Of a stretch of DNA of 42,979 nucleotides, positions 28,021 through 40,967 are shown piece by piece. The stretch lies in the IMG/VR virus record IMGVR_UViG_3300050015_000439, positions 1-42,979 of that record; one strand, 5' to 3'. Made by a program: the position numbers and the translations under genes. Numbering within the stretch: the first letter of the stretch is position 1; every line of letters starts with the position of its first letter. This stretch comes from a virus. The notes beneath the pieces are model-generated. The model did no database searches. It worked only from the letters and a program-made list of their open reading frames with translations, and was not told the origin of the DNA.

Positions 28021-31000
28021 TCATGTCGGCTTTGCAAATTCAGGTTCGGGAATCACATCGGCGGCAATCCGCACGTTTGTCAGCGTGCATGAGCCTGTGA
28101 AAACAAATTTCAACTGGAAATTGTAACCCTCTCGCATGGGCTGGTTGTTCGTCAAATCAAATACTTTCGGGTCTGGCATACCGATTGGAATACGGCGGCG
28201 ATAACCGGGGTCTGACGCGCCCTGAAAAACCACCGTGGACGAATACCACGGCGTCCAGTTCGGATTCTGGTCGGAACGGTAGAACACCTGATAGCCGACA
28301 TTCGCCGTGATGTCCCTGATTGAAAATTCACCGTTGACGAGCCGCTTGTAAAGGCGCGGGTCGGTCGGTTTTTCAGGTTCTTTGAACAGCATTGGGCTTT
28401 CAAATGACCATGTGACCGGCTGCACGTTGTTATCGAGCGTGGCCGCGCCGTCAAGTTCGATCTGGACAAGCCCAATGGTTGCCGTCGCGCCGCTTCCGTT
28501 AAGGCAAAGCGCAAAGCATTGTTTCACGCCATTGAAAACACCCGTAATCAGTTTTAATACTCGAAGTCCGTTCCACTCGCCGTCCCACACCGATGAAGCC
28601 TTGCCCTGCAAAGAGCTTATCGGGTCGAAATTGAGCGCGACTAACGCCGCGCCATAAACACCGCGAACGTCTTGAACCAACTGGCACGTCATCAGCATAC
28701 GATTATTGAAAACCGTCATGCTTGTAAATGAAAGCAATGCCTGATTGTCGCCGCCGATGCTCCGAATGACTTCGTTGCTGATCGGCGTGTTGCCCCACTG
28801 GTTGAAATCCTGCGATGCCATCAGCATTGACTGGACGCCACCATCGGAAAGACGAAAAATCAAATCGTTGTTCGATTGAACCACGGCGTCCTGACCCGCC
28901 GCGCCAGAGCCTATCAATCCCTCAACCTGAATCGGGCTTGTCAGCGTTGACCATGTGGTTAAATCCGGCGGCGCGTCATTCGAGAACACCGTGTCGTCCG
29001 TAAAGATTTGCAATGCGCCCTGTCCAAGCGATGCGTCTATCTGCGCGACAAACTGCATGGCCGTTATTGTTTCACCCGCGCCTGAAATCTGGAATGTCCC
29101 GCCGCCCGCAAGAAAATAATTCTGCGAAACGGTAAGGACTGAATCGCGGTATTTGTATTGCTGCGTGCCTGTGTCCGAACCAACAATATCACTTGCGACG
29201 TAGGAAACTCCATCTGGCAAAGCAATCCAATTCCTGCCCATTCCATAGACGCCCATGATGCAGGTTGGAATTTCAGGCAGTGAATAAATGAATGTTCCCG
29301 CAGGGACAAAATTTTGGATTGACTCGGCGGATGGTGCTGCCGCCGTCCCGACGTTTTGCAGCCCCGGCGTGTCATTGATGTTTTGCAGGAGCAGGCTGTT
29401 GTTGCCGCCAGTTGATCCTCCGGTGACGGAAATGACCCAAAACGGATACGCAGTTGAACCGATGGTGACTTGGATTATCTGGCTCTGGTTTGCAAGATTG
29501 TTCAGGTCAATCAACTCGAAATTTGCAGGCGTGTTTATCGTGATGAAACTGCCGGTGCTTCCTGCTGAATTTGTTGTGCCAGTTCCGCCAGCCGTGATGA
29601 CGCCCACACCTGTCAAAATGCCCGCGCCTACGGTTGTGTCAACGACGACATTGCTCACCGATGAAGGGGTGCTGCCGGATATGGGTATCACATCACCGAC
29701 CGCCGCCGCCGTGTTCATCTGGCATTGAATCATGTTGGCCGAGCCTCCGACATTTTTTGCCGTCACGACAAACGAGGCGACATTGGCAGCCGCCGTTGTG
29801 ATTACCAACGTGTCGCCCACGATGTTGGTGAAAGCCGAAGAAAGATTGAGTTGAAAATAGTTGGTGTTGCCGCCAAACGTCCCGCCGGAAGGAGACACCA
29901 CGCTTGCGACAACCTTTGCCGTTCCGCCCGCATTAAGATTTGCTGTCAAAAAAACGACCTGTCCCGGCACTGGAATGTTTGCCGCCGTTATGTCAATCGT
30001 CACGTTGTTTCCTGCCGCTGGAATGACGACACCGCCGATAATCGCAGTCCCATAAGTGACAAGCGCAGCCTGTGAATGGCTTGTGTTAATCACCAAAGCC
30101 CCGTTTGGAATTGGAGTCCCGTTTGCCACATAACCCGCTGGCATCTGGCACGTCAACGAAGTGCCGCTAAAGTTAGCAACCTCGAAGGCAATCCCGTTGA
30201 CGTTCAATGTGTCCCCGATTGAACCTGAATAATTCTGCGATTGCGTGATGTAAAAATAATTCGGAATTGCGGGGCTTCCGGGGGTTGCTCCAGCCGGATA
30301 GGTTGGCGGGGAGGCAAAGTATTGTGCAGAGCCGAGTGTGTTGCCACCTGGAAAAAAGACCTCGCCTGCAATGGATGATCCGTAGGGTGAATTTGTTCCA
30401 GTCTGACGGACGGAACAGGTGATTGAAGTGGAGAATCCGCCGCTGGTTGTCTGGCTTACCATTGTGACTTGAGTGGCTCCGATGGTCAAGGTTCCACCAC
30501 TAACAAAAGATGATGCGAGAACCGCGTATGGATAAGAAGGCCAAGAAAGAACAAAAGTTCCCGCTAATGTTGGCGGAACAGCCGGAACTGGCGCATTTGG
30601 ATATGTCGAGGGGCTAACTGAAGAAGCAATCGTCCCCGCGTAATACTTTGATGACGCCACGGCGTTGCCCATTGGAACGGTGTTCGCCGCGATGCTGGCC
30701 GGGGATAAAATCGTGAGAACCAACTGGTCGCCCGGTGTCCCGGCAACCGGCTCTAGCGGGAATTCAGTTATCGGGGTGATTCCGTCCGCTGCATAGGCGT
30801 CGAGAATCACGCCGCAATACTTTGAGTTGAGATACGCCTCGGTGTTGACTGGAATTTCAAGACCGCCCGCGCTCGTGAGTGCCGCGAGGCCAAGCGTGGC
30901 GTTTGCCGTCGTGACGCCGCCGCTCCATCCGGCGACATAATAAAGCGCGCTGCCAATCAGGACGACCCGCTGGCCGGATGTCCATGGCGCATTGATGTCC

Positions 31001-31551
31001 ACATTCCCGGCTGGAAGCATTTCCGAGCCGATGACAAACTGGTTCTGTGCCGGGATGTTGAAGTCGGTTGCGGTTGAGCCAAGCGGCGTTGGTGTTGCGC
31101 CAAGCGAAAGCCGCGAGGTCGAACCATCAAAGAATGTCGGCAAACTTATTCCATCGCACCACACCAGAAATTGCTCCGTCTGCCACAGCGCGTTCTTCAC
31201 CGCCGTCGTGGAATTTTGCTGCGGTATCGGAACCTCAATCACCGTGGCAACCGTCGAGGCCGCATTGATGGAAATTTGAAACAGCTTTCCGTTGACGGCG
31301 CACATGATGTAGCCGTTGGTCGTGTTCCTGAAATATGTCGCCCCTTGAAAAATTCCAGATTGAAAATCTCCGCCTGTTTTGTCAACGAGCGTCAGGTTGA
31401 AAAAGTTTGGACGCTGCGTGATGAAGTTTCCGCGCACAGTCGCATTGGTCGCAAACGAAAGCTGATTTTGGGGAAGCAAAAGCGCGTCCACATAGCTATT
31501 GATCCCAAGCGGAAAACTTTTCAGGACGGCATAAATTGTCTTGTCTGACAT
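28021..31551 (-). CDS. Tail nozzle-like protein (1176 aa)
   Basis: It begins with an N-terminal part typical of podoviral nozzle (T7 gp12-like) proteins: SFPLGINSYVDALLLPQNQL, then NATVRGNFITQRPNF, FQSGIFQGATYF, IMCAVNGKLFQI, a beta-propeller-like start. A long stretch of Thr/Gly/Ala/Val-rich beta repeats (about 200-760) looks like an inserted or expanded domain; C-terminal sequences return to propeller-like strands (NRMLMTCQL, SSVWDGEWNGLRVLKL). Function: the tail tube tip through which DNA and internal proteins leave. The expansion to 1176 residues exceeds T7 gp12 (about 800). Confidence 0.65.
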   Translation of the reverse strand: MSDKTIYAVLKSFPLGINSYVDALLLPQNQLSFATNATVRGNFITQRPNFFNLTLVDKTGGDFQSGIFQGATYFRNTTNGYIMCAVNGKLFQISINAASTVATVIEVPIPQQNSTTAVKNALWQTEQFLVWCDGISLPTFFDGSTSRLSLGATPTPLGSTATDFNIPAQNQFVIGSEMLPAGNVDINAPWTSGQRVVLIGSALYYVAGWSGGVTTANATLGLAALTSAGGLEIPVNTEAYLNSKYCGVILDAYAADGITPITEFPLEPVAGTPGDQLVLTILSPASIAANTVPMGNAVASSKYYAGTIASSVSPSTYPNAPVPAVPPTLAGTFVLSWPSYPYAVLASSFVSGGTLTIGATQVTMVSQTTSGGFSTSITCSVRQTGTNSPYGSSIAGEVFFPGGNTLGSAQYFASPPTYPAGATPGSPAIPNYFYITQSQNYSGSIGDTLNVNGIAFEVANFSGTSLTCQMPAGYVANGTPIPNGALVINTSHSQAALVTYGTAIIGGVVIPAAGNNVTIDITAANIPVPGQVVFLTANLNAGGTAKVVASVVSPSGGTFGGNTNYFQLNLSSAFTNIVGDTLVITTAAANVASFVVTAKNVGGSANMIQCQMNTAAAVGDVIPISGSTPSSVSNVVVDTTVGAGILTGVGVITAGGTGTTNSAGSTGSFITINTPANFELIDLNNLANQSQIIQVTIGSTAYPFWVISVTGGSTGGNNSLLLQNINDTPGLQNVGTAAAPSAESIQNFVPAGTFIYSLPEIPTCIMGVYGMGRNWIALPDGVSYVASDIVGSDTGTQQYKYRDSVLTVSQNYFLAGGGTFQISGAGETITAMQFVAQIDASLGQGALQIFTDDTVFSNDAPPDLTTWSTLTSPIQVEGLIGSGAAGQDAVVQSNNDLIFRLSDGGVQSMLMASQDFNQWGNTPISNEVIRSIGGDNQALLSFTSMTVFNNRMLMTCQLVQDVRGVYGAALVALNFDPISSLQGKASSVWDGEWNGLRVLKLITGVFNGVKQCFALCLNGSGATATIGLVQIELDGAATLDNNVQPVTWSFESPMLFKEPEKPTDPRLYKRLVNGEFSIRDITANVGYQVFYRSDQNPNWTPWYSSTVVFQGASDPGYRRRIPIGMPDPKVFDLTNNQPMREGYNFQLKFVFTGSCTLTNVRIAADVIPEPEFAKPT

Positions 31552-31791: not shown

Positions 31792-31862
31792 AGGATTTTT
31801 ACAGCCATCGGGGTGTTGGCTTGTTGCATTATCCGCATATTCCGTCTAAAGTCAAATACTAC

Positions 31863-31891
31863 TTGCGAAACCATTAAAAATCCGTGATAGA
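31863..31891 (+). promoter_or_regulatory. Predicted promoter of the terminase gene
   Basis: TTGCGA (31863-31868), 17 nt, GATAGA (31886-31891). Here a 20-nt leader containing GGAAA precedes ATG 31912, so this gene could use a conventional ribosome binding site, unlike the leaderless-type starts. Confidence 0.4.
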
Positions 31892-31911
31892 AAAAGCTGG
31901 AAACACATCTG

Positions 31912-34575
31912 ATGCCAAAAATAATTGACAAATACGGTTCACAATGGAACGCGCCGCCCCTTCCGATTCAGGTGGAATTTCTGATGATGATGCAGCCGGA
32001 CGAAGTGCTTAAAAAGGCCGGAGTTTCAAAACCGGATATTTACAAAAATGCCGCAAAGACTATCTGGCCTCATCTTGACTGGCATCGCTGGATGGAGCTT
32101 TGCAACAATGAAATTAGAAGGCCGGAGGCAAAAGTAACCGTCATCATGGGCGCGGGATGCGTGGCCGGGCACACAAGGATTTTGAACCCCCTCACAGGCG
32201 AACAGCCAACCATCAAAGAACTTTACGAAAGCCAAACCGCCCCAATCGTAATGACGCTTCATGGGGCAGCACAAGCCGGAATCCCATTCATCAAGGGAGT
32301 CGAAGATTTGTATGAAGTGGTTTTGGAAAACGGTTCAAAATTTACAGTGACCCAAGAACACAGGATTTTAACCGCTCGCGGTTTTTTGCACGTTGCCGAC
32401 TTGCTTGCAAACGACTGCCTTTTCTCATACGAAGTCCAATCTCGTGGGCAAGATGCGATAAGCCATCTTGAAACAATCGAAGATTTGACGGATTGTTGTT
32501 GCTTTTCGTTCCATCCAAATGGTGAACTACTTCGCTATGCGAGAGAAGCCTGCCAAGTTTCTCCTCCATCACAAGACGATGCTCTAAAACATAACCTGAA
32601 ACATTCCGGTTCGGGTGATTTGGACTGTAAATTAAAACATAACCTTTCTTTGTCACAAGCCTTCCCCCCTTCCATCGGTGGGAGCGCCCCCCCTTGTGAT
32701 TTCTTGGGAAATCGCGAGTCACGCCATTTGCCCGAAGAAATCTTTTTATGTGCCGCGCCTTCGATCCGATGCGGCGTCCAATCTCATTTAGAGACGCGCC
32801 GGAATTATTCATTTGAAAAACAAGTTCCTGATTTCTCCGACAAGCACTATCAGGACGAATTCTTTTGTAATCAAAAATTGATTTCATTGCGATTCAATAT
32901 AACCCAAAGCAAAATAGTGTCAATAACTGAAACCCATAAAGATATTTTTTACGACATCAGCGTTCCGGGCGTTGAGCATTATTTCGCGGAAGGCGCGATT
33001 CATCACAATTCAACGGGCAAAACCTGCGTCTCTGGATGGGAATATCTTCTCGAATACTATGCCTCGCCAGACGACACCCTTGTTTTGATTTCTTCAACAG
33101 ATTTAAGCTCTCTGGAAGGCCGTGTCTGGGGCGAACTTAAAATGCTTCACGAAATGGCGGTTCAAAAATTTCCGTGGCTGCCCGGATATTTGCTGGATTC
33201 CAAACACTGCATTACAACCGACCGGCTTGAGAAAGACGAATACGAGGAAGAATCTAAAACCAGAGATTTAAGAAAAGGCGTAATGTGTGTTCCCACAATT
33301 CAAGGCAATAAAAACGTGGGTCTTGGAAAGTGGATTGGTCGAAAACAAAAACACATGAGGCTGATAGCGGACGACTGCACGGCCATGTCCGCTACTTTTC
33401 TTTCAGCGTTTGCAAACCTCAATAACAACATTGATTTTCAGGCGATTATTTTGGGAAATCCAAGCGATATTCTTGATCCGCTTGGAATCGCAAGCGAGCC
33501 GCTTGATGGATGGTCTGGGCATCTTGAGCCGACAAAAACAACCGTTTGGGACACTAGGTTTTTCAACGGAAGATGTATAAATCTGGTTGGAACCGACAGC
33601 CCTAATTTTGATTTCCCCGAAAACCAGCCGGAAAAATATCCTTATCTGGTGAGCCGAAAAAAAATCAATGAAACGATGTCTGCGTTTGCAAAAGACAGTT
33701 ACGAGTATTTCAGCCAATGCGTCGGCGTGATGAAAATATCACAACTGGCCAGAAGGGTAATCACAAAGGATTTATGCAGACAGTTTCATGTCAAAGACAA
33801 GGCGATTTGGAGTGGTGAAAAAAGAACAGTGATCGCCGCTCTGGATGCCAGCTATGGCGGCGACAGATGCGTTGGTGGTCATGCAGAATACGGAAAGTGC
33901 ATTGACGATGTAATCAGGCTTCAATTCTATCCACACCATATCGTCCCGGTAGCCACCCAAAGCGGAGAACCAATGGTTTCCGAAGATTCTATTTCAAAAT
34001 TCGAGAAAAAGTATTGCGAGTCAAATCAGATTCCTCCAGAAAACTTCTTCCATGACAGCACTGGCAGAGGCTCTCTTGGGACTTCCCTGTCGAGAACTTG
34101 GTCGTCATTGTGCAATCCAGTTGAGTTTGGTGGTGCGGCAACCAAAAGGCCGGTCACAATGGATACATTTGTCATAGACAAAGAAACTGGAAGAAAAAGA
34201 CTCAAGCGGTGTGAAGAAGCATATTCAAAATTTGTCACGGAACTTTATTGGAGTTTGAGGCTGGCGATTGAAGCCGACCAGATACGAGGGTTGCCGGAAG
34301 ATGTAATCGAAGAAATGTGCATGAGGGAATGGGACAGGGTTTCCGGGGACAGAATTGAAGTAGAATCTAAAATTTTAATGAAGGTCAGAACTCGAAAATC
34401 TCCCGACTTGGCGGATTGGGCTGTGATTATTTTGGAAGGCGCGAGACGAAGGGGATTTCAAATCTCGAAAATGTCGAACAAAGACGAGTCTCAATCCGAC
34501 TCAAACCGCTGGCTCTCCGACCTGTCCAAGAAACGGTTTGAATGGCATAAAAGCAAGATGATTTCAGTTCGTTAA
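31912..34575 (+). CDS. terL: Terminase large subunit interrupted by an intein
   Basis: 887 residues as encoded. Without the intein (residues 83-366) the product is about 603 residues, normal for a terminase large subunit, the ATP-driven packaging motor and headful or cos nuclease. Landmarks are the Walker A GAG/STGKT split exactly by the intein, Walker B MRLIADD (about D487-D488), then a RuvC-like nuclease with AALDASYGG (D645), FFHDSTG (D715) and SPDLADW (D832/D835). Unless the intein splices, the P-loop is broken. The gene is on the plus strand whereas portal and tail genes on both sides are minus. Confidence 0.93.
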   Translation: MPKIIDKYGSQWNAPPLPIQVEFLMMMQPDEVLKKAGVSKPDIYKNAAKTIWPHLDWHRWMELCNNEIRRPEAKVTVIMGAGCVAGHTRILNPLTGEQPTIKELYESQTAPIVMTLHGAAQAGIPFIKGVEDLYEVVLENGSKFTVTQEHRILTARGFLHVADLLANDCLFSYEVQSRGQDAISHLETIEDLTDCCCFSFHPNGELLRYAREACQVSPPSQDDALKHNLKHSGSGDLDCKLKHNLSLSQAFPPSIGGSAPPCDFLGNRESRHLPEEIFLCAAPSIRCGVQSHLETRRNYSFEKQVPDFSDKHYQDEFFCNQKLISLRFNITQSKIVSITETHKDIFYDISVPGVEHYFAEGAIHHNSTGKTCVSGWEYLLEYYASPDDTLVLISSTDLSSLEGRVWGELKMLHEMAVQKFPWLPGYLLDSKHCITTDRLEKDEYEEESKTRDLRKGVMCVPTIQGNKNVGLGKWIGRKQKHMRLIADDCTAMSATFLSAFANLNNNIDFQAIILGNPSDILDPLGIASEPLDGWSGHLEPTKTTVWDTRFFNGRCINLVGTDSPNFDFPENQPEKYPYLVSRKKINETMSAFAKDSYEYFSQCVGVMKISQLARRVITKDLCRQFHVKDKAIWSGEKRTVIAALDASYGGDRCVGGHAEYGKCIDDVIRLQFYPHHIVPVATQSGEPMVSEDSISKFEKKYCESNQIPPENFFHDSTGRGSLGTSLSRTWSSLCNPVEFGGAATKRPVTMDTFVIDKETGRKRLKRCEEAYSKFVTELYWSLRLAIEADQIRGLPEDVIEEMCMREWDRVSGDRIEVESKILMKVRTRKSPDLADWAVIILEGARRRGFQISKMSNKDESQSDSNRWLSDLSKKRFEWHKSKMISVR
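32342..32887 (-). CDS. HNH endonuclease encoded antisense inside the intein
   Basis: 181 residues. Residues about 15-55 look like a helix-turn-helix (LNEIGRRIGSKARHIKRFL). The nuclease follows: GYVLIYSPNHPN, EHRLVMEEKLGR (H103), the catalytic VVHHLDG (H122-H123, D125), NNNPSNLRLF (N132, N135) and SHLAHEIG (H145, H148), the usual HNH_3-type order in phage mobile endonucleases. It lies wholly within intein codons on the other strand; its last codons overlap intein block B. Likely role: homing of the intein by cutting intein-less terL. Target specificity is inferred, not shown. Confidence 0.88.
   Translation of the reverse strand: MKSIFDYKRIRPDSACRRNQELVFQMNNSGASLNEIGRRIGSKARHIKRFLRANGVTRDFPRNHKGGRSHRWKGGRLVTKKGYVLIYSPNHPNRNVSGYVLEHRLVMEEKLGRLLSHSEVVHHLDGTKSNNNPSNLRLFQDGLSHLAHEIGLRMRKGSRLQASRQRAKNRERLKSCVLGSL
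32896..32923 (-). promoter_or_regulatory. Predicted promoter for the antisense HNH gene
   Basis: On the minus strand a perfect TTGACA (32923-32918), a 16-nt spacer and TATATT (32901-32896, five of six to TATAAT), then 8 nt to ATG 32887. The 30-nt TTGACA-to-ATG distance equals that at several phage genes. It lies within plus-strand codons just before intein block F, so one sequence serves both strands. Confidence 0.6.
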
Positions 34576-34989
34576 TTATTCAATACCGCTCATTAAGTTG
34601 TAGTATTCATGGTCGTATTTCTTCCAACTGGAAAAAGTTGCATAAATGACAATGTATTCCATGCAGATTCCAGCCATATGTCCCCAGTAATAAGGACAAC
34701 GTCTATCACAGCCAGCATCATTCGTAATGGGAATCGAGCCATTTTTGTAACCATCTTCGTAAATCTGGTCAAATCTGTCTGCTTCTTCGGTTGTAATTCC
34801 AAAAATCCAGCAATACAAAACCTCGACGAGTTCATGGCACCAAACCGCCGCTTCAAACCGCCAATTGGACGCTTTTACCACGGCAACGTGAAGCGTTCCT
34901 TTATTTTCAGGTTTATCCCACCACCAATACCCCCCTGTGGAAAAAGGCATTTGATTTACAGAATCATAACGATGGAATTTTATTTTCAA
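34576..34989 (-). CDS. HELVE-type metallopeptidase-like phage protein (137 aa)
   Basis: WCHELVEVLYC (H52, E53, E56), then a RFDQIYEDG segment, PYYWGHMAG (H104) and CMEYIV (E111) reproduce the spaced His/Glu pattern of a family of small uncharacterised phage proteins. That family looks like minimal zinc metallopeptidases with the third ligand supplied late. Activity is not shown. It overlaps the ATP-grasp gene by ATGA. It ends one nt after the terminase stop, convergently. Confidence 0.6.
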   Translation of the reverse strand: MKIKFHRYDSVNQMPFSTGGYWWWDKPENKGTLHVAVVKASNWRFEAAVWCHELVEVLYCWIFGITTEEADRFDQIYEDGYKNGSIPITNDAGCDRRCPYYWGHMAGICMEYIVIYATFSSWKKYDHEYYNLMSGIE

Positions 34990-36368
34990 AGCAGTTCTGA
35001 ATTTATCAACCAGTCGTAACGGTTCATTATCGAGGTGAAATATGCGCGCGAAAGAAAGTCGAATTTTGGCCGGTAATAAGCCCCTGTCATGACAAATCCT
35101 TCGAGAGCTTGATACGCCATCCTAACGGCGGCTTCGATGTTGTCGGCAGCTCCTGTTGCGCAGCCAACATCCTTGTCATAACCGACGCTGACAAATCTTT
35201 CTTCTTCATCGCCTTCTGATTTCACTTTTTTAAGGCAATAGAAAAATAACTGATCTGAAACTTCATCCAGCCAGTCCATCGTGTATTCACCTTCATACAT
35301 ATCTGGCTCTTTACCATTTGGTTCAGTTTGAAACAGGCGAACCGAAACTCCAAATTTCCAATTCAACGGATTTTTACCTTTGGAAATCAGGTCGAAATGT
35401 CGGACAACCGAACCGCGTCCTTTTTTGTCGCCGCACATGGCTATTTCAGAAAATAACCCGTCAAAACCCCATCGCGTAGCGCAAAACTCCGTGAAATAAA
35501 AATCGTTTCCGTCAAACAGAAGTCCGGCATCGAAAATTGAGATTCCTGGCTGTTTTTTTGCCATGTCGTAAATAATCGGCGGAAAGGCTATTTTATTAAG
35601 TTCGCAATCCAGTCTAGTTTGGATGCATAAATCCTGACATCCGCCCGTCAATCTACCAATGTTTCCAGAACCAATCGGTTTGTTCTCAAGCTCGACAAGG
35701 CTAAACAATGGGACACCATCCCAGAAAACCATCACAGGAGTTATCTCAATCGGTTTCTTTATTTTTTCCTCAAGCGTGAATCCTCCGCGTTCATATCCTT
35801 TGGCCTCCGTTTTTAATGCGCCGGAAATCTGCCTTCGAGCAAGTTCTGGGTCGGTTGTTTCTGGGACAACGGTTTCAGCATTGCTTCCCTCGCTTTTAAG
35901 GACGAAAATCTTGTCTGGGTTTTCCTCAAGAAATTTCAGGGCGTCGTCCACCCTGTGAAATTCAGCGACTTCCGCCACTTTCAAATCGGGATAATTTTTC
36001 TTGGCAAAATCCTTTCCGGCCTGACGGTCTTTTTCAAGATTATAACTCTCTTCGGTTGGGAAAACCCCTTTTCGGAAACCCATCTTCAATGCTTTTTCGG
36101 AGTATTCCCAAAGATCTCCATAATCAAACATGACAAACCACTCATCTTTATTTTTTATGGTTTTCATCCACTCAATCACATCATCGGCGGATTTTATGTC
36201 CAAAATTCCTTCGTAAAGAGAAAGGCGTGAATCGCTTTTTCCTTTTGGTGTGTTCTCGTCCTCTTCCTTTTGAACCATTCCAATGATAACTTTCTTGCCG
36301 TCGTCCAGCAGGCGGTCGGCGATTGGCAGAGGGTGGAAATCCCTTGTTATGAAAATATAATTATCCAT
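34986..36368 (-). CDS. ATP-grasp enzyme, PurD-like (460 aa)
   Basis: The protein follows the ATP-grasp layout: an N-terminal Rossmann-like part (YIFITRDFHPLPIADRLL), then DKIFVLKSEGSNAETVVPE (ATP-lid strand with Lys), GFTLEEKIKKPIEITP, GSGNIGRLTGG (in the position of the PurD GPNTGG loop) and FYFTEFCATRWGFDGL (metal-binding Glu and Arg strand). ATP-grasp enzymes join a carboxylate to an amine via an acylphosphate. Best overall resemblance is to phosphoribosylamine-glycine ligase, but the divergent loops make another amino-acid ligase as likely. It is paired with an amino-acid racemase gene that it overlaps by 8 nt. Confidence 0.65.
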   Translation of the reverse strand: MDNYIFITRDFHPLPIADRLLDDGKKVIIGMVQKEEDENTPKGKSDSRLSLYEGILDIKSADDVIEWMKTIKNKDEWFVMFDYGDLWEYSEKALKMGFRKGVFPTEESYNLEKDRQAGKDFAKKNYPDLKVAEVAEFHRVDDALKFLEENPDKIFVLKSEGSNAETVVPETTDPELARRQISGALKTEAKGYERGGFTLEEKIKKPIEITPVMVFWDGVPLFSLVELENKPIGSGNIGRLTGGCQDLCIQTRLDCELNKIAFPPIIYDMAKKQPGISIFDAGLLFDGNDFYFTEFCATRWGFDGLFSEIAMCGDKKGRGSVVRHFDLISKGKNPLNWKFGVSVRLFQTEPNGKEPDMYEGEYTMDWLDEVSDQLFFYCLKKVKSEGDEEERFVSVGYDKDVGCATGAADNIEAAVRMAYQALEGFVMTGAYYRPKFDFLSRAYFTSIMNRYDWLINSELL

Positions 36369-37032
36369 TTTTCATCGCCTCTTTTATAGCCTCCTGACCG
36401 GCATCAATCAATGTCATGGCCATTCGGCTTTCTAAAATCAATGGAATTTCCGTGCATCCAATGATTATTTGATCCGCACCGGAGCGAGACATCCGAATTA
36501 TGATGGATTCGGTGTCAGTGAGATTTCCACGAATCGAACGGCCAGAAATTGCCGCCTTGACAGCTTGGTTTAGAGCAGCCTGCTCTGCATCCGTTGTTGA
36601 AATTGGTTCAATCCCAAGGCTTCTTAAGTGTCTTTCATAAAGTTTTGATTTTTTAGTGGAGTCGGAGCATAAAACACCAACCTTATCGGCAGTTGCGCTC
36701 TGGCAGGCCGCATCAATCATATTTATTATTTGACCATCGAAATAAGTTTGGAGTTCATCAAGAAAAACGTGGGCAGAATTGCAGGCTATGATTATCTGTT
36801 TGCACTCCCAGACTTCCATTTTGGAAATCGCCTTTTTTAGTTGGGATTTTACCAATCCTTCGTCAACTATTCCGGTCTCATCCATCCCTTTCACCGGAAG
36901 ATTATAGAGCAGAAATTCAGGAAAATCCGAATCCTGCATTATTTTACTATCCTGTGCTTGGTCGAGAAGAAAATTTGCCAGTCTAATTCCAGCAAATGCC
37001 CCCATCCCAGAAATGATTCCAAGATTTTTCAT
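36361..37032 (-). CDS. Aspartate/glutamate racemase family protein (223 aa)
   Basis: A complete Asp/Glu racemase fold by motif: LGIISGMGAFAG start, IIACNSAHVF (C84) and IIIGCTEIPLIL (C193), the two cysteines that abstract the alpha proton from opposite sides without cofactor, and VGVLCSDSTKKSKLY between. Length is typical. Substrate is probably aspartate, glutamate or a related amino acid, converted to the D form. The gene sits in the portal operon (ATGA overlap with the portal stop region) and overlaps the ATP-grasp gene, so the pair likely acts in one pathway. Confidence 0.8.
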   Translation of the reverse strand: MKNLGIISGMGAFAGIRLANFLLDQAQDSKIMQDSDFPEFLLYNLPVKGMDETGIVDEGLVKSQLKKAISKMEVWECKQIIIACNSAHVFLDELQTYFDGQIINMIDAACQSATADKVGVLCSDSTKKSKLYERHLRSLGIEPISTTDAEQAALNQAVKAAISGRSIRGNLTDTESIIIRMSRSGADQIIIGCTEIPLILESRMAMTLIDAGQEAIKEAMKNG

Positions 37033-39317
37033 TCCTTTGAACTTGCATTCAATTTTTCATAGGCCTTTCTGCTTCCCTCAAGCCCGCTGCGAAACGATTC
37101 CGCGACAGCCTGCGCGTTCTGACGGCGGATTTCAGCCTTCGTCGCCACATCCTTGCGTTTCTGCTCATGGGCGAAGGACACGTTTTTATGCTGCATCTTC
37201 TGGCGGGCAGTCGCCTCGCTGATTTTGGACTTGGTTTTCGCGGCAATCAAATCCTTCGCCAGTTCCCCGTTCTCACCGCCGCCGTTCTGTTGCTGCGCCT
37301 TTTTCGCGGCCTCCTGCTGACGCTGCTGGAACGCCTTCACAAAATTCATCAGCTTGCCAAGCAGGTCTGAAAATTTCTTCACGTTCTGTTTTTCTTCCGG
37401 GTCTTGGCCTAGAATCTGGATATGCTGCTCCGTTACAGCCGCCGCAAGCTGCAAGCCTTGAACCTGTGCGGGTGTTCCGACGCCACCTGATTTCTGTATG
37501 TTGCCTATGACTGCGCCCATTGATTTTAGCAGCCGCGTTATTTGTTCGATGTGGTTCAAGCCCTCGCGCATTTCGGGCGGCACTCCATTCATGCAGGTAT
37601 TGAAATCCACCTCTGCCTGCTTCGTGGCATCGCTGACATTCGGCAAGGCGTCCGGCGGGGCAATGCGGCGGGCTTTCTTCGCGTTGTTAGTCACCGCCAA
37701 TGCCCAATCGTGTTTGATTTCCGCTTGTGCGTGCGGGTCAAACAGGTTGACCTTGCCCATGAGCGTGTCAGCCTGCGCGACTTCCATTGCCCGGTTGCCT
37801 CCGCCAAGTGTCTGCTCTATTTCAATGTCCCATCTTTCGATGTCCAGCCACTTGCGCGGAATTTTCGCCTCCATGCACTTTGCCTGAAATTTTTTAACTT
37901 CAAAATCTGTGCTTTTTTCGAGGGTGAACCGTCTCGCTATCTCTCGATATGAAAATGTTTCAAGCCGGTAAGCGCGCGACAAAAGGGACTGCATCAACTG
38001 CGACACCTGCATCATCAACGCCTGCATTTCAAACTTGGTCTGGCGTTCGTTTTTCATCACGTTTGCCGGGGACTGCGTATAGGCCGACGTGGAATTTCCG
38101 ATAAGCGTGGCGTATTCATCCTTTAACCCGGCCACAAGGTTTGCGTCAACGCCATACCGCTCCGCAGCGGTCACAAAGTTCAATCCCTCTGGAATTATGC
38201 CCCACGGCGCATCAAACACGACCTGTTCAAGCCTTGAACGGTCTGCCGGGTCTGTCACGCGAAAGATCGTTAGCATCTGTTCAAAGACGTGCTGCGTCCA
38301 CTGGCAGCGCAGGCGGTTCATCGTCCATAAAAGTTCGTAAGTAAGGAACGCCAGCGAGCGGATTGAATGATACATGAATGGCGGGACATTGTTTCCATCG
38401 CCAAACTGAAAATGGATGATGCTGCCCAAGTCCGCCGAAAAAGGCTTCTTTCCGTTGTAAATAATCTGCGCGGTGTCTCCACTGTCGTTGACGCCGGGTA
38501 TCACCGTGTCGCGGTCGAGCATCATTTTCCGATACCAGCCGGGGTTTTTGGATTCTTCCTCGCGGTAATAAAAATCCCAAAACCATATCACGGGCGCGGA
38601 ATCACTGTCGTAGAAAGTCATGTTCTGCTTGTAAAGCTCGGCCATCTGCTCCGGCGTGTCCGACCAGTCATAATTCTCCGGGTTCTGGTTTAATTCCTGG
38701 TAATTGTCCAGAATTTTCCTGACCGCTGGCAGATTCCAGCCCTTGTCAATGTTCTCCGGCTTGCGGAAAAATGTGTATTTGAAAAGTTCGCCCGGCCTCA
38801 TCTTCCGGCACACGGCGAAGTATTGCAAATTCTCCATCGTTATTTCCGTGTCGGTCGGAATCAAAAAATCCTGAACAAATTTTCCGACCGGCTTCCATGA
38901 AAATTCATCGCCCCACATCTTTGCGCCCATGCCGTGCAGGCATACACCGCCAAACACAGAGTCTTGCGTGTGGAAAAATGAATTGCTGTTGACGATTGGC
39001 TTGTTGATGAGGCGGGTGATTGTGGTTTCCCAATCGCGCTGATTCTTTTCAGGCGCATCAGGGATGGACACCTTGAAAAACTGCGCCTGCTTCATAAATG
39101 CGTTCTCGTATTGCGCTCTGGCGTTGTGCAACAAGACGCTGCCTTGTTTGTCATTGAAGCGGACAAGAATATGATTTGCTTCCGCTTCCTCATCCGTCCA
39201 AAGAACCTTGCCATTGAAAAACTCATTGAGCATGGCGCGGGTCGAGGAGCGCGTCAACTCGCCTTGCTTCATCGAGTCAATCACCGAATCAATTTTTTCC
39301 GCCGTCGAGAAGTTCAT
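37029..39317 (-). CDS. Portal protein (762 aa)
   Basis: A long portal of podovirus type. Landmarks are the central NPGWYRKMMLDRDTVIPG, the wing-type region SIIHFQFGDGNNVPPFMYHSI, a stem stretch with QALMMQVSQLMQSLLSRAY, and a Gln/Lys-rich C-terminal coiled coil (AFQQRQQEAAKKAQQQN) likely forming the barrel inside the head. Portal dodecamers are the DNA entry channel and dock the terminase. Gene order (portal then tail adaptor genes, with terminase near) supports the call. Overlaps neighbours by ATGA on both sides. Confidence 0.8.
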   Translation of the reverse strand: MNFSTAEKIDSVIDSMKQGELTRSSTRAMLNEFFNGKVLWTDEEAEANHILVRFNDKQGSVLLHNARAQYENAFMKQAQFFKVSIPDAPEKNQRDWETTITRLINKPIVNSNSFFHTQDSVFGGVCLHGMGAKMWGDEFSWKPVGKFVQDFLIPTDTEITMENLQYFAVCRKMRPGELFKYTFFRKPENIDKGWNLPAVRKILDNYQELNQNPENYDWSDTPEQMAELYKQNMTFYDSDSAPVIWFWDFYYREEESKNPGWYRKMMLDRDTVIPGVNDSGDTAQIIYNGKKPFSADLGSIIHFQFGDGNNVPPFMYHSIRSLAFLTYELLWTMNRLRCQWTQHVFEQMLTIFRVTDPADRSRLEQVVFDAPWGIIPEGLNFVTAAERYGVDANLVAGLKDEYATLIGNSTSAYTQSPANVMKNERQTKFEMQALMMQVSQLMQSLLSRAYRLETFSYREIARRFTLEKSTDFEVKKFQAKCMEAKIPRKWLDIERWDIEIEQTLGGGNRAMEVAQADTLMGKVNLFDPHAQAEIKHDWALAVTNNAKKARRIAPPDALPNVSDATKQAEVDFNTCMNGVPPEMREGLNHIEQITRLLKSMGAVIGNIQKSGGVGTPAQVQGLQLAAAVTEQHIQILGQDPEEKQNVKKFSDLLGKLMNFVKAFQQRQQEAAKKAQQQNGGGENGELAKDLIAAKTKSKISEATARQKMQHKNVSFAHEQKRKDVATKAEIRRQNAQAVAESFRSGLEGSRKAYEKLNASSKE

Positions 39318-40171
39318 TCAAGGGTTTTCGTTTCAGCGGGTGGATTCGGGGATGTCAATTTTTCGAGTTCAGCGTCAGAAACTTCTTCCGGCTTTCCATC
39401 GCCCGCGCCGTTCGGTGCAGGCGGCGTCCCCGTTGGTTTTAACTTCCGCAGCAACGGAATCAAGCCGCCGTCCTTGCAGCGATGAAATAAAACGGCGTCT
39501 GGCTTCACAAAATCCAGAGTGACGTGGTTCTCCGGCGAGTCCGGCAGCCTGGCCTCCACAAAAATCGGCGGCTTGTCCGGCTGCCCCCAAAAATGGTGTA
39601 TCAAATTCGTGTGCTGTGACGCTGTGACAATCCTTTCGCCGCCACCGATGTCCCATGCCTGACGACCGCCGTTCACGTCGGGTATTCTGGAAAAATCCAA
39701 ATACGCATCCGGCGGATAAACCGAGCATCCCGTCAGGTGCTTTGCCGGAAGATTCTTCTGCCCTGTCTGTTCGATGACAGCCCCCATATAGCGTAGCGGG
39801 CTTTCCTGATATGCCTCACTGATGTCGGCCAGCCAGTTCGGTTTCATAGGCACGCAGTCCGGCTCAAGCCACAGGAACGGGCATCCGTAGTTTTCCTTCA
39901 CATACTTCGCCGCCTGCAAGAACATCGAATTAGGCTTATGCCCCGTGGCGGGTATGGCGGCGGAGACGGCTCGCGCATGGGAAAAGATTGTTTTCGCCTT
40001 TTCAAAAAGAGGGACGACGCGGTTCATGTCAACCTCGCGGTCAACCCAGAACAGGACGGGGAACGGCATCAGACCGTCCAGTTCTCCAATCCATTCGACA
40101 AGTTTTTCAGTGAGGTTAAAGTCGCCATTGTGCGTGGCGATGACGACGAGCAGGTTTGTGTTTTTGTTCAT
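39314..40171 (-). CDS. Glycosyltransferase-like protein, GT-A type (285 aa)
   Basis: ATG 40171 (MNKNTNLLVVIATHNGD) is the natural start; the longer frame upstream overlaps the preceding gene. A GT-A-like opening (LLVVIATHNGDF) is followed by PVLFWVDREVDMNRV, and WLEPDCVPMKPNWLADISEAY holds an acidic motif in the DxD position (EPDC). The C-terminus is a disordered Pro/Gly/Glu tail. It is the fourth glycosyltransferase-like protein in the window and is translationally coupled to the portal, so virion glycosylation is a reasonable idea. Confidence 0.6.
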   Translation of the reverse strand: MNKNTNLLVVIATHNGDFNLTEKLVEWIGELDGLMPFPVLFWVDREVDMNRVVPLFEKAKTIFSHARAVSAAIPATGHKPNSMFLQAAKYVKENYGCPFLWLEPDCVPMKPNWLADISEAYQESPLRYMGAVIEQTGQKNLPAKHLTGCSVYPPDAYLDFSRIPDVNGGRQAWDIGGGERIVTASQHTNLIHHFWGQPDKPPIFVEARLPDSPENHVTLDFVKPDAVLFHRCKDGGLIPLLRKLKPTGTPPAPNGAGDGKPEEVSDAELEKLTSPNPPAETKTLE

Positions 40172-40572
40172 GGTGCAGGGGTTTGTGTTTGTTGTTTCAT
40201 CCAGCAAAATGCCGGGAATTTTGAAAGTGTTTCGGAATCCATGCAGCCAAGCAGCGTATCCATCGGGGTGTGAATTTTCAGCGGAAGATGGCAGCGGCAA
40301 ACCATGCACACACCCAGCCCCGGCTCATTTTCAATGGAGAGATTCATGCCGTTCTTGCGTTCGATGTGCGCCTTGACGATTTTTCCCACAATGGAATTAA
40401 AATCAATGTCCCTGCGCTGGTTATGCGGACAGGGATTTCCAGACAATCTTCCGGTGCAAATGTCACCGCGAGCCTGCGCCTCTTCCTGTGCGACAGGAAT
40501 AAACCCGTCGTCGCCCCAGTCAAGCAATGTTTTGATCCCGCGCATTTCATTTGAAATAAATTTCGAAATCAT
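40168..40572 (-). CDS. Cys-rich putative zinc protein (134 aa)
   Basis: The start is at ATG 40572, overlapping the stop of the upstream gene. Two Cys clusters (CTGRLSGNPCPHN and CMVCRCHLPLKIH) plus later Cys (LLGCMD, AFCWMK) indicate zinc binding. Proteins of this type, with NPCPHN and C-x2-C-x-C before a Lys, are frequent near phage glycosyltransferase genes; role unknown. The stop overlaps the GT-A-type gene start. Confidence 0.55.
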   Translation of the reverse strand: MISKFISNEMRGIKTLLDWGDDGFIPVAQEEAQARGDICTGRLSGNPCPHNQRRDIDFNSIVGKIVKAHIERKNGMNLSIENEPGLGVCMVCRCHLPLKIHTPMDTLLGCMDSETLSKFPAFCWMKQQTQTPAP

Positions 40573-40967
40573 GCCGTCGCCCCATTCAGTAGCGGAACAC
40601 CGCAGGAAGCGCAACCTCTTTTCTGCGAATCCTGCCGCGGCACAAAATTAAAATTTCCACCCCTGCACCATGCCGGGTCGTTGTTCAACCGCACGCATTG
40701 CGCCTCGTCAACGTCCGTCATCACCATAACCATGTCAGCCCGTTCAAGTCCGTTCGCCTTTCTTAACGCCAGTATCGGGGCGCAAAACTGCTTGAACGGC
40801 ATCGTCGTCGTGGAAAACTTCTTGATGACGCCGCCATTCCCGTCCAGTTGTGAATAGACATATCCACCTGCCGGGATTGACGTGTAATTGATGAGGGGCA
40901 TTTGATTATGAGCGAGCCTGTCTGCCAGGCTGATGTAACCTGCAATTGATTGTTTATCCACCATCAT
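40569..40967 (-). CDS. Hypothetical protein with a C-terminal Cys motif (132 aa)
   Basis: Not recognised as a family. Mixed alpha/beta with IKKFSTTTMPFKQFCAPILALR and a VMVMTDVDEAQC strand carrying acidic residues. The C-terminus WCRGGNFNFVP, then GCASCGVPLL gives a likely zinc site. It lies 44 nt after the 51-aa gene and overlaps the next gene by ATGA. Confidence 0.5.
   Translation of the reverse strand: MMVDKQSIAGYISLADRLAHNQMPLINYTSIPAGGYVYSQLDGNGGVIKKFSTTTMPFKQFCAPILALRKANGLERADMVMVMTDVDEAQCVRLNNDPAWCRGGNFNFVPRQDSQKRGCASCGVPLLNGATA

Follow-up and report, generated by a model that had tools for sequence, protein, structure and literature searches.

An HNH endonuclease gene antisense within an intein of a probable phage terminase, and a probable class of such mobile inteins

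The window, a 42,979-nt stretch of viral DNA (IMG/VR record IMGVR_UViG_3300050015_000439), carries an intein in the Walker A motif of a probable TerL protein, and the opposite strand of this intein encodes a full HNH endonuclease. This arrangement, first proposed in a preliminary description, was confirmed. In the textbook account, an intein is either a splicing domain fused in frame to an endonuclease or a mini-intein believed to have shed it. Judging from sequence comparison, the insert is very probably a composite mobile element with its splicing and homing functions on opposite strands. We also hold with high confidence that it represents a widespread, undescribed class of mobile intein, located for the most part in the P-loops of phage terminases, and one in which opposite strands encode splicing and homing in a single codon phase, the endonuclease promoter lies in splicing-block codons, the element has spread to terminases, an SMC/Rad50-like ATPase and an SNF2 helicase, and loss of the endonuclease leaves a mini-intein. 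Two points go beyond the preliminary description: the element belongs to a widespread family instead of being a single case, and the HNH gene appears to have its own antisense promoter. The observations behind this reading are two intact frames, selection, a fixed phase, predicted domain folds, sporadic occupancy and precise in-frame insertion, from which we infer splicing, HNH expression, cleavage and homing. The features of the element are as follows, with the evidence in brackets.

31912–34575, plus strand: host gene, probable TerL, an 887-aa precursor including the intein (ORF; P-loop GAGSTGKT once the intein is removed; inteinless homologues)
31912–32157, plus strand: N-extein, 82 aa, ending ...VIMGAG (comparison with inteinless homologues L083 and L084)
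32158–33009, plus strand: intein, 284 aa, Cys1 to Asn284, then Ser+1 (PF14890, TIGR01445, TIGR01443, AF2 model)
32158–32442, plus strand: N-terminal splicing half, blocks A and B, intein residues 1–95 (pLDDT ~97)
32359–32361, plus strand: block B His68 (C1 and H68 invariant in 55–56 aligned inteins)
32443–32880, plus strand: antisense-coded linker, intein residues 96–241, predicted disordered (pLDDT 40–60; neutral in the host frame)
32881–33009, plus strand: C-terminal splicing half, blocks F and G, residues 242–284 (invariant D266, V269 and N284; pLDDT ~97)
33010–34572, plus strand: C-extein, 521 aa (68–75% identity to inteinless homologues L083–L086)
32342–32887, minus strand: HNH endonuclease gene, 181 aa, antisense to the intein (HNH_3 and PHROG matches; AF2 pLDDT 88.6)
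32450–32584, minus strand: HNH catalytic region, EHRLVMEE ... EVVHHxDG ... N131, N135 ... H145 (invariant columns in 33–34 nested homologues)
32729–32845, minus strand: helix-turn-helix-like, putatively DNA-binding N-terminal part of the HNH protein (model helices 15–53; weak Tc3-like HTH matches)
32896–32923, minus strand: predicted sigma70-like promoter of the HNH gene, TTGACA at 32923–32918, 16 nt, TATATT at 32901–32896 (11 of 12 matches)

The intein, its host protein and the antisense gene

The intein interrupts the Walker A motif of its host (GAG/STGKT, with the slash at the insertion point), and its borders are exact, because the inteinless L083 and L084 read straight through this point (VIAGAG/STGKT, against VIMGAG-intein-STGKT in the window; C-extein identity 75%). 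The preliminary description had the intein run from Cys83 to HHN366, followed by Ser, and these borders stand, with Cys at 32158, HHN ending at 33009 and Ser next. Two other metagenome assemblies, L001 and L002, contain the same phage and carry the element at 99.9% identity to the window, which rules out misassembly at the intein borders. The host protein is probably TerL. The profile of its C-extein family matches terminases weakly, with one member reaching the phrog_2 terminase at E 1.7e-6, and the Sf6 gp2 nuclease also weakly (E 0.028), while the C-terminal acidic motifs look like those of terminase nucleases. Among relatives of the window intein, Pfam recognised the host as a terminase in 16 of the 39 scanned. 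The long ORFs flanking the TerL gene (28021–31551 and 34576–40967) all lie on the minus strand, TerL being on the plus strand. Nine of ten other long ORFs tested had no PHROG match at E 0.001, which places the phage in a poorly described group.

On the 887-aa ORF, Pfam Intein_splicing scored 36.8 bits (cut-off 35.8), and the NCBIfam intein N- and C-terminal domains matched residues 83–154 and 347–367. The class 1 intein residues C1, block B H68, block F D266 and N284 are invariant in 55–56 aligned inteins, and with the profile matches they bear out the splicing blocks A, B, F and G read earlier from the sequence. With Cys1, the block B His and HN followed by Ser+1, the window intein is class-1-like. 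Its AF2 model has the Hint fold and matches the Mtu RecA and Npu DnaB mini-inteins (TM 0.84–0.88 by target length; Foldseek E 6e-8). The linker, almost without secondary structure in the model, occupies the spot where other inteins have an in-frame endonuclease. Family searches of the host frame found no endonuclease domain in it, as had been stated, the HNH lying on the opposite strand. The intein probably removes itself from the precursor by protein splicing.

The complete 181-residue HNH protein that had been read from the minus strand at 32342–32887 is recognised by Pfam HNH_3 (37.4 bits) and by PHROG HNH endonuclease families (E 8e-28). The nearest PDB fold to its model is I-HmuI (Foldseek probability 0.98). 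The catalytic residues first listed held in large part: H103, H123, N135 and H145 are invariant and H122 nearly so, whereas N132 is not conserved and N131 is invariant instead. The HNH stop codon lies opposite intein residue 62, so the C-terminal tail of the protein overprints block B, an overlap already seen in the preliminary description. Across the family the stop falls at intein residue 55 (median), so that the tail is encoded antisense to blocks A–B. The product is a putative homing enzyme that would cut the unoccupied allele.

Selection, open frame and a predicted promoter

Selection was measured on 25 independent pairs of nested loci, that is, loci with one antisense phase open for at least 300 aa opposite the HNH gene. 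Differences at HNH codon positions 1, 2 and 3 numbered 290, 244 and 869. When omega was estimated for each frame conditional on the change being non-synonymous in the other, it was 0.25 (0.20–0.30) for the HNH gene and 1.05 (0.87–1.22) for the host frame opposite, in which changes creating stops were under-represented. The ratio of host position 2 to position 3 differences was 0.25 in the N-block, 0.60 in the stretch of that block whose other strand encodes the HNH tail, 4.07 opposite the HNH core and 0.17 in blocks F/G, and no selection on the linker amino acids opposite the core was detected in these pairs. The omega values and this profile indicate that the HNH gene is under purifying selection and that the linker is merely kept open, with both strands constrained where the HNH tail meets block B. 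By the codon-position rates, which had been proposed as a check, the HNH strand is the one under selection within the segment, and the intein strand the one under selection beyond it.

The preliminary description also had one frame kept open through the HNH gene, and the stop statistics agree. In the window, synonymous codon shuffling of the HNH gene predicts 7.6 stops in the intein frame; none was observed, and 0 of 20,000 shuffles reached zero, while the two remaining antisense phases contain 9 and 10 stops. Across the nested family the intein phase has 0 stops against 730.5 expected over 25,255 codons (synonymous shuffling within each gene), and 809 and 1277 stops were observed in the other two antisense phases. 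In 62 distinct non-nested HNH relatives the same phase holds 313 stops, with 326.6 expected. In our reading, the intein frame is kept free of stops along the HNH gene for the sole reason that a stop would cut TerL short. Six HNH relatives with no intein assigned (L069, L074, L080, L255, L261 and L263) are stop-free over the core in antisense phase 0, which is likely due to chance or composition.

The HNH gene appears to have its own antisense promoter inside the codons of block F. The top promoter-like site of the 3-kb region is the sequence TTGACA-16-TATATT-8-ATG, spanning 32923–32888 on the minus strand, in which the HNH start codon follows TATATT by 8 nt and the -35 box is antisense to the V-S-I codons with which block F begins. 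At L001 its score beats synonymous recodings of the host codons (p ~0.005). Scored with an E. coli matrix, the antisense promoter does better than synonymous recodings of the host codons at p<0.05 in 32 of the 92 representatives, where 4.6 would be expected (mean z 1.59); the other 60 are individually non-significant. Two layouts recur, one with the -10 box 6–11 nt before the ATG, which suggests a leaderless mRNA, and one with TATAAT ~30 nt upstream together with a Shine-Dalgarno sequence. As a general start signal, the Shine-Dalgarno sequence gave a mixed picture, many HNH starts having a -10 box instead. The HNH gene is co-oriented with its flanking genes in the window but not in Pectobacterium phages, so read-through is not a general route of its expression.

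Distribution, alleles and cultured carriers

IMG/VR and GTDB contigs were scanned with the window HNH and profiles of HNH relatives, and some cultured-phage loci were included. The scans used degenerate peptide patterns, and the locus counts are for this reason lower bounds, not frequencies. At least 317 loci had an HNH match and at least 199 were nested, all in one fixed codon phase (phase 1), in which HNH codon positions 1, 2 and 3 lie opposite host positions 1, 3 and 2. An intein N-block or C-block was present in all of these 199 nested loci, and both in 193. The nested loci comprise at least 144 distinct sequences in at least 82 clusters at 70% amino acid identity. Their inteins, of which at least 141 of the at least 144 could be delimited, measure 262–372 aa (median 296). 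In the 141 delimited inteins the first residue is Cys in 137, the C-terminal Asn is followed by S, T or C in every case, 18 end in KN instead of HN, and the site is nearly always in the Walker A motif (GGNR/SGKT or RxGK/T). In L016, L024, L027, L029 and L038 the intein end reads QKN/S instead of HN/S, a less usual penultimate residue.

Since this first set had been picked through the HNH gene and the open frame, the scan was repeated with the intein N-block only, using a narrower profile, as that of all members was too variable. Among the 80 matches listed, 75 carry an antisense HNH, again in phase 1 (L397 as a remnant only), and five are mini-inteins of 131–140 aa without an HNH; related inteins with and without the insert, which the preliminary description had asked for, therefore both occur. 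A tblastn search of INPHARED with one intein N-block returned no match. The nested element is also found in other P-loop proteins, namely an SMC/Rad50-like ATPase (L025) and an SNF2 helicase (L013). The latter (L013:3388–9363, minus strand) is a phage protein of 1992 aa that combines InPase and SNF2-helicase parts. Its HNH reads VVPH, without the first of the two paired His residues, and clusters with non-nested HNHs in a quick tree; it may for these reasons be a separate acquisition or a decayed copy. That tree has five label changes and low support; the fixed phase suggests a single origin of the nested HNH, which the tree leaves unproven.

At one terL site, the 80 terminases listed (82–100% identical to one host protein) comprise 63 empty, 12 nested and 3 mini-intein alleles, with 2 cut by the contig end, and the closest empty/occupied pair among them is 94.6% identical in C-extein DNA. 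Comparison with the inteinless homologues L083/L084, phage KLB22 and the 63 empty alleles shows that insertion is in frame and at a conserved site. Where they share a terminase site, allelic mini-inteins measure 131–140 aa and nested versions ~295–316 aa; L336 (mini, 133 aa) and L333 (nested, 316 aa) differ cleanly and in frame by ~183 codons. These allelic forms support the proposal that a mini-intein took in an antisense HNH gene. In the mini-intein L397, ~40 codons of the HNH tail survive as a remnant that reads as a deletion scar. No long intein with a decayed HNH occurs among the loci found, the L397 deletion having shortened its intein to mini size. Related intein and HNH pairs are also found in exteins of much lower identity. 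Such pairing in divergent exteins, together with sporadic occupancy among near-identical terminases, is what homing would predict.

The element is carried by at least nine cultured phages, in none of which it is annotated as an intein. Eight isolates form one group (HNH identity 93–100%): the Pectobacterium phages Taid, Pappous, Amona, Koroua, Ymer, Abuela and Sabo, and Dickeya phage Setonix. In Taid and Sabo the HNH lies in phase 1 and the intein-bearing TerLs are annotated as hypothetical protein; the related Klebsiella phage KLB22, compared with these two, has the empty site VAGFG/TGKS. The paper on the Ymer genus mentions neither an intein nor an HNH (PMC11445585). The ninth carrier is Pseudoalteromonas phage PHS3 (L409, KX912252.1 16116–21811), whose record annotates the HNH and a truncated TerL, while the TerL frame is actually open through the HNH gene (708 aa, intein in the P-loop). 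Gene callers thus keep one of the two genes, either as a hypothetical protein (Pectobacterium phages) or as the HNH with a truncated TerL (PHS3). Because the carriers propagate in culture, they presumably have a working TerL and hence a splicing intein, and splicing, expression and homing are directly testable in them.

Mechanism, alternative readings and known systems

In the mechanism we propose, the intein in the TerL P-loop would excise itself from the protein, and the antisense-coded linker would, on the structural model, serve as an unstructured tether joining the two Hint halves. The HNH gene, encoded separately on the strand opposite the intein middle, would be transcribed from the antisense promoter in block F; its product would cut intein-free P-loop alleles, and repair would copy the whole element in. 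One stretch of DNA thus appears to make both the protein that hides the mobile element and the enzyme that spreads it. As one piece of DNA serves both functions, each from its own strand, a mini-intein can turn mobile without protein fusion, and the endonuclease can be controlled apart from an essential host gene. The family also offers a large collection of natural antisense gene overlaps in which selection is clear on one strand, while the other is just kept open.

A reading in which the antisense frame is decayed or fortuitous, with the HNH a relic or the open frame a coincidence and only one strand functional, is very improbable. The linker does look like junk, being neutral in the host frame and predicted to be disordered, but a relic is rejected by the HNH omega of 0.25 and the third-position bias in the 25 pairs and is at odds with the invariant catalytic residues, and a chance open frame is rejected by synonymous shuffling, with no host-phase stop where some 730 were expected. 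Against both, only a single remnant, itself shortened, occurs among the 80 N-block matches listed. We also consider it unlikely, if less so, that a dual-coding element persists without homing, the HNH excluding co-infecting phages or regulating terL and the intein serving mainly as a refuge. Phage HNH homing enzymes can confer a competitive advantage (PMC7468147), and cutting a rival terL would do both; this reading is set against the sporadic occupancy among near-identical terminases and the joint occurrence of intein and HNH in divergent exteins.

Hardly credible, finally, is an element acting at the RNA level, in which the insert would be an intron or otherwise removed from RNA and its likeness to an intein incidental. 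HNH genes are common in group I introns, where endonuclease genes can be antisense, but an Rfam search of 31800–34700 gave no family at threshold and only a chance-level snoRNA match, leaving an RNA intron without support there, and the insert has invariant intein catalytic residues and a Hint fold modelled at pLDDT ~97. A composite element that both splices and homes remains our preferred reading.

Inteins and HNH homing endonucleases are both known kinds of element; for the opposite-strand architecture, no description was found in open-access papers. The window HNH shares its motif and fold with I-HmuI and phage HNH homing endonucleases; I-HmuI, however, is encoded in a group I intron, whereas the window HNH is nested antisense in an intein. 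The Mtu RecA, Npu DnaB and Ssp DnaB mini-inteins are the closest solved structures and share the Hint fold, but they are splicing domains alone, whereas here ~150 antisense-coded residues separate the halves. The preliminary description knew of no homing endonuclease nested antisense in an intein, and none was found described in the open-access literature, although a subscription journal may hold one; the nearest case is ShiLan. There too an insertion that does not close the host frame encodes an HNH homing endonuclease in another frame and is sporadically distributed, but the ShiLan HNH is on the same strand (third frame), its insertion has no splicing domain and is described as neither intein nor intron, and its translation is attributed to leaderless initiation. 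The window HNH is instead antisense, in phase 1, within a Hint intein and with its own predicted promoter, and the same-strand, splicing-free ShiLan arrangement does not describe it.

TerL P-loop inteins are known in mycobacteriophages (TerL1-a and TerL1-b), with the same host protein class and Walker A region, including Lys/Thr insertion; the passages found on them report no antisense endonuclease (PMC5050341). An insert in the mitochondrial cox2 gene of Campsomeris likewise interrupts a gene and combines an HNH-like QNU gene with antiparallel overlapping ORFs, but it is animal mitochondrial, splits its gene into two polypeptides and has no detected intein splicing (PMC5374615). Neither these nor the remaining papers considered amount to prior art (PMC5374615, PMC7468147, PMC2988022, PMC1508164, PMC1635734, PMC3322345, PMC5050341, PMC11445585).

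A TerL relative of the window protein (L087:3–1790, plus strand) carries an intein at a second site (HN/C-IPTVQGNKN), its start lying off the contig. A shifted frame on the same strand (10–489, plus) encodes a 160-aa DUF559/Vsr-like nuclease (PF04480, E 1.7e-16), and a scan for relatives of this nuclease returned only itself and two weak matches. By its sequence, L087 appears to encode another endonuclease out of frame in an intein, here on the sense strand.
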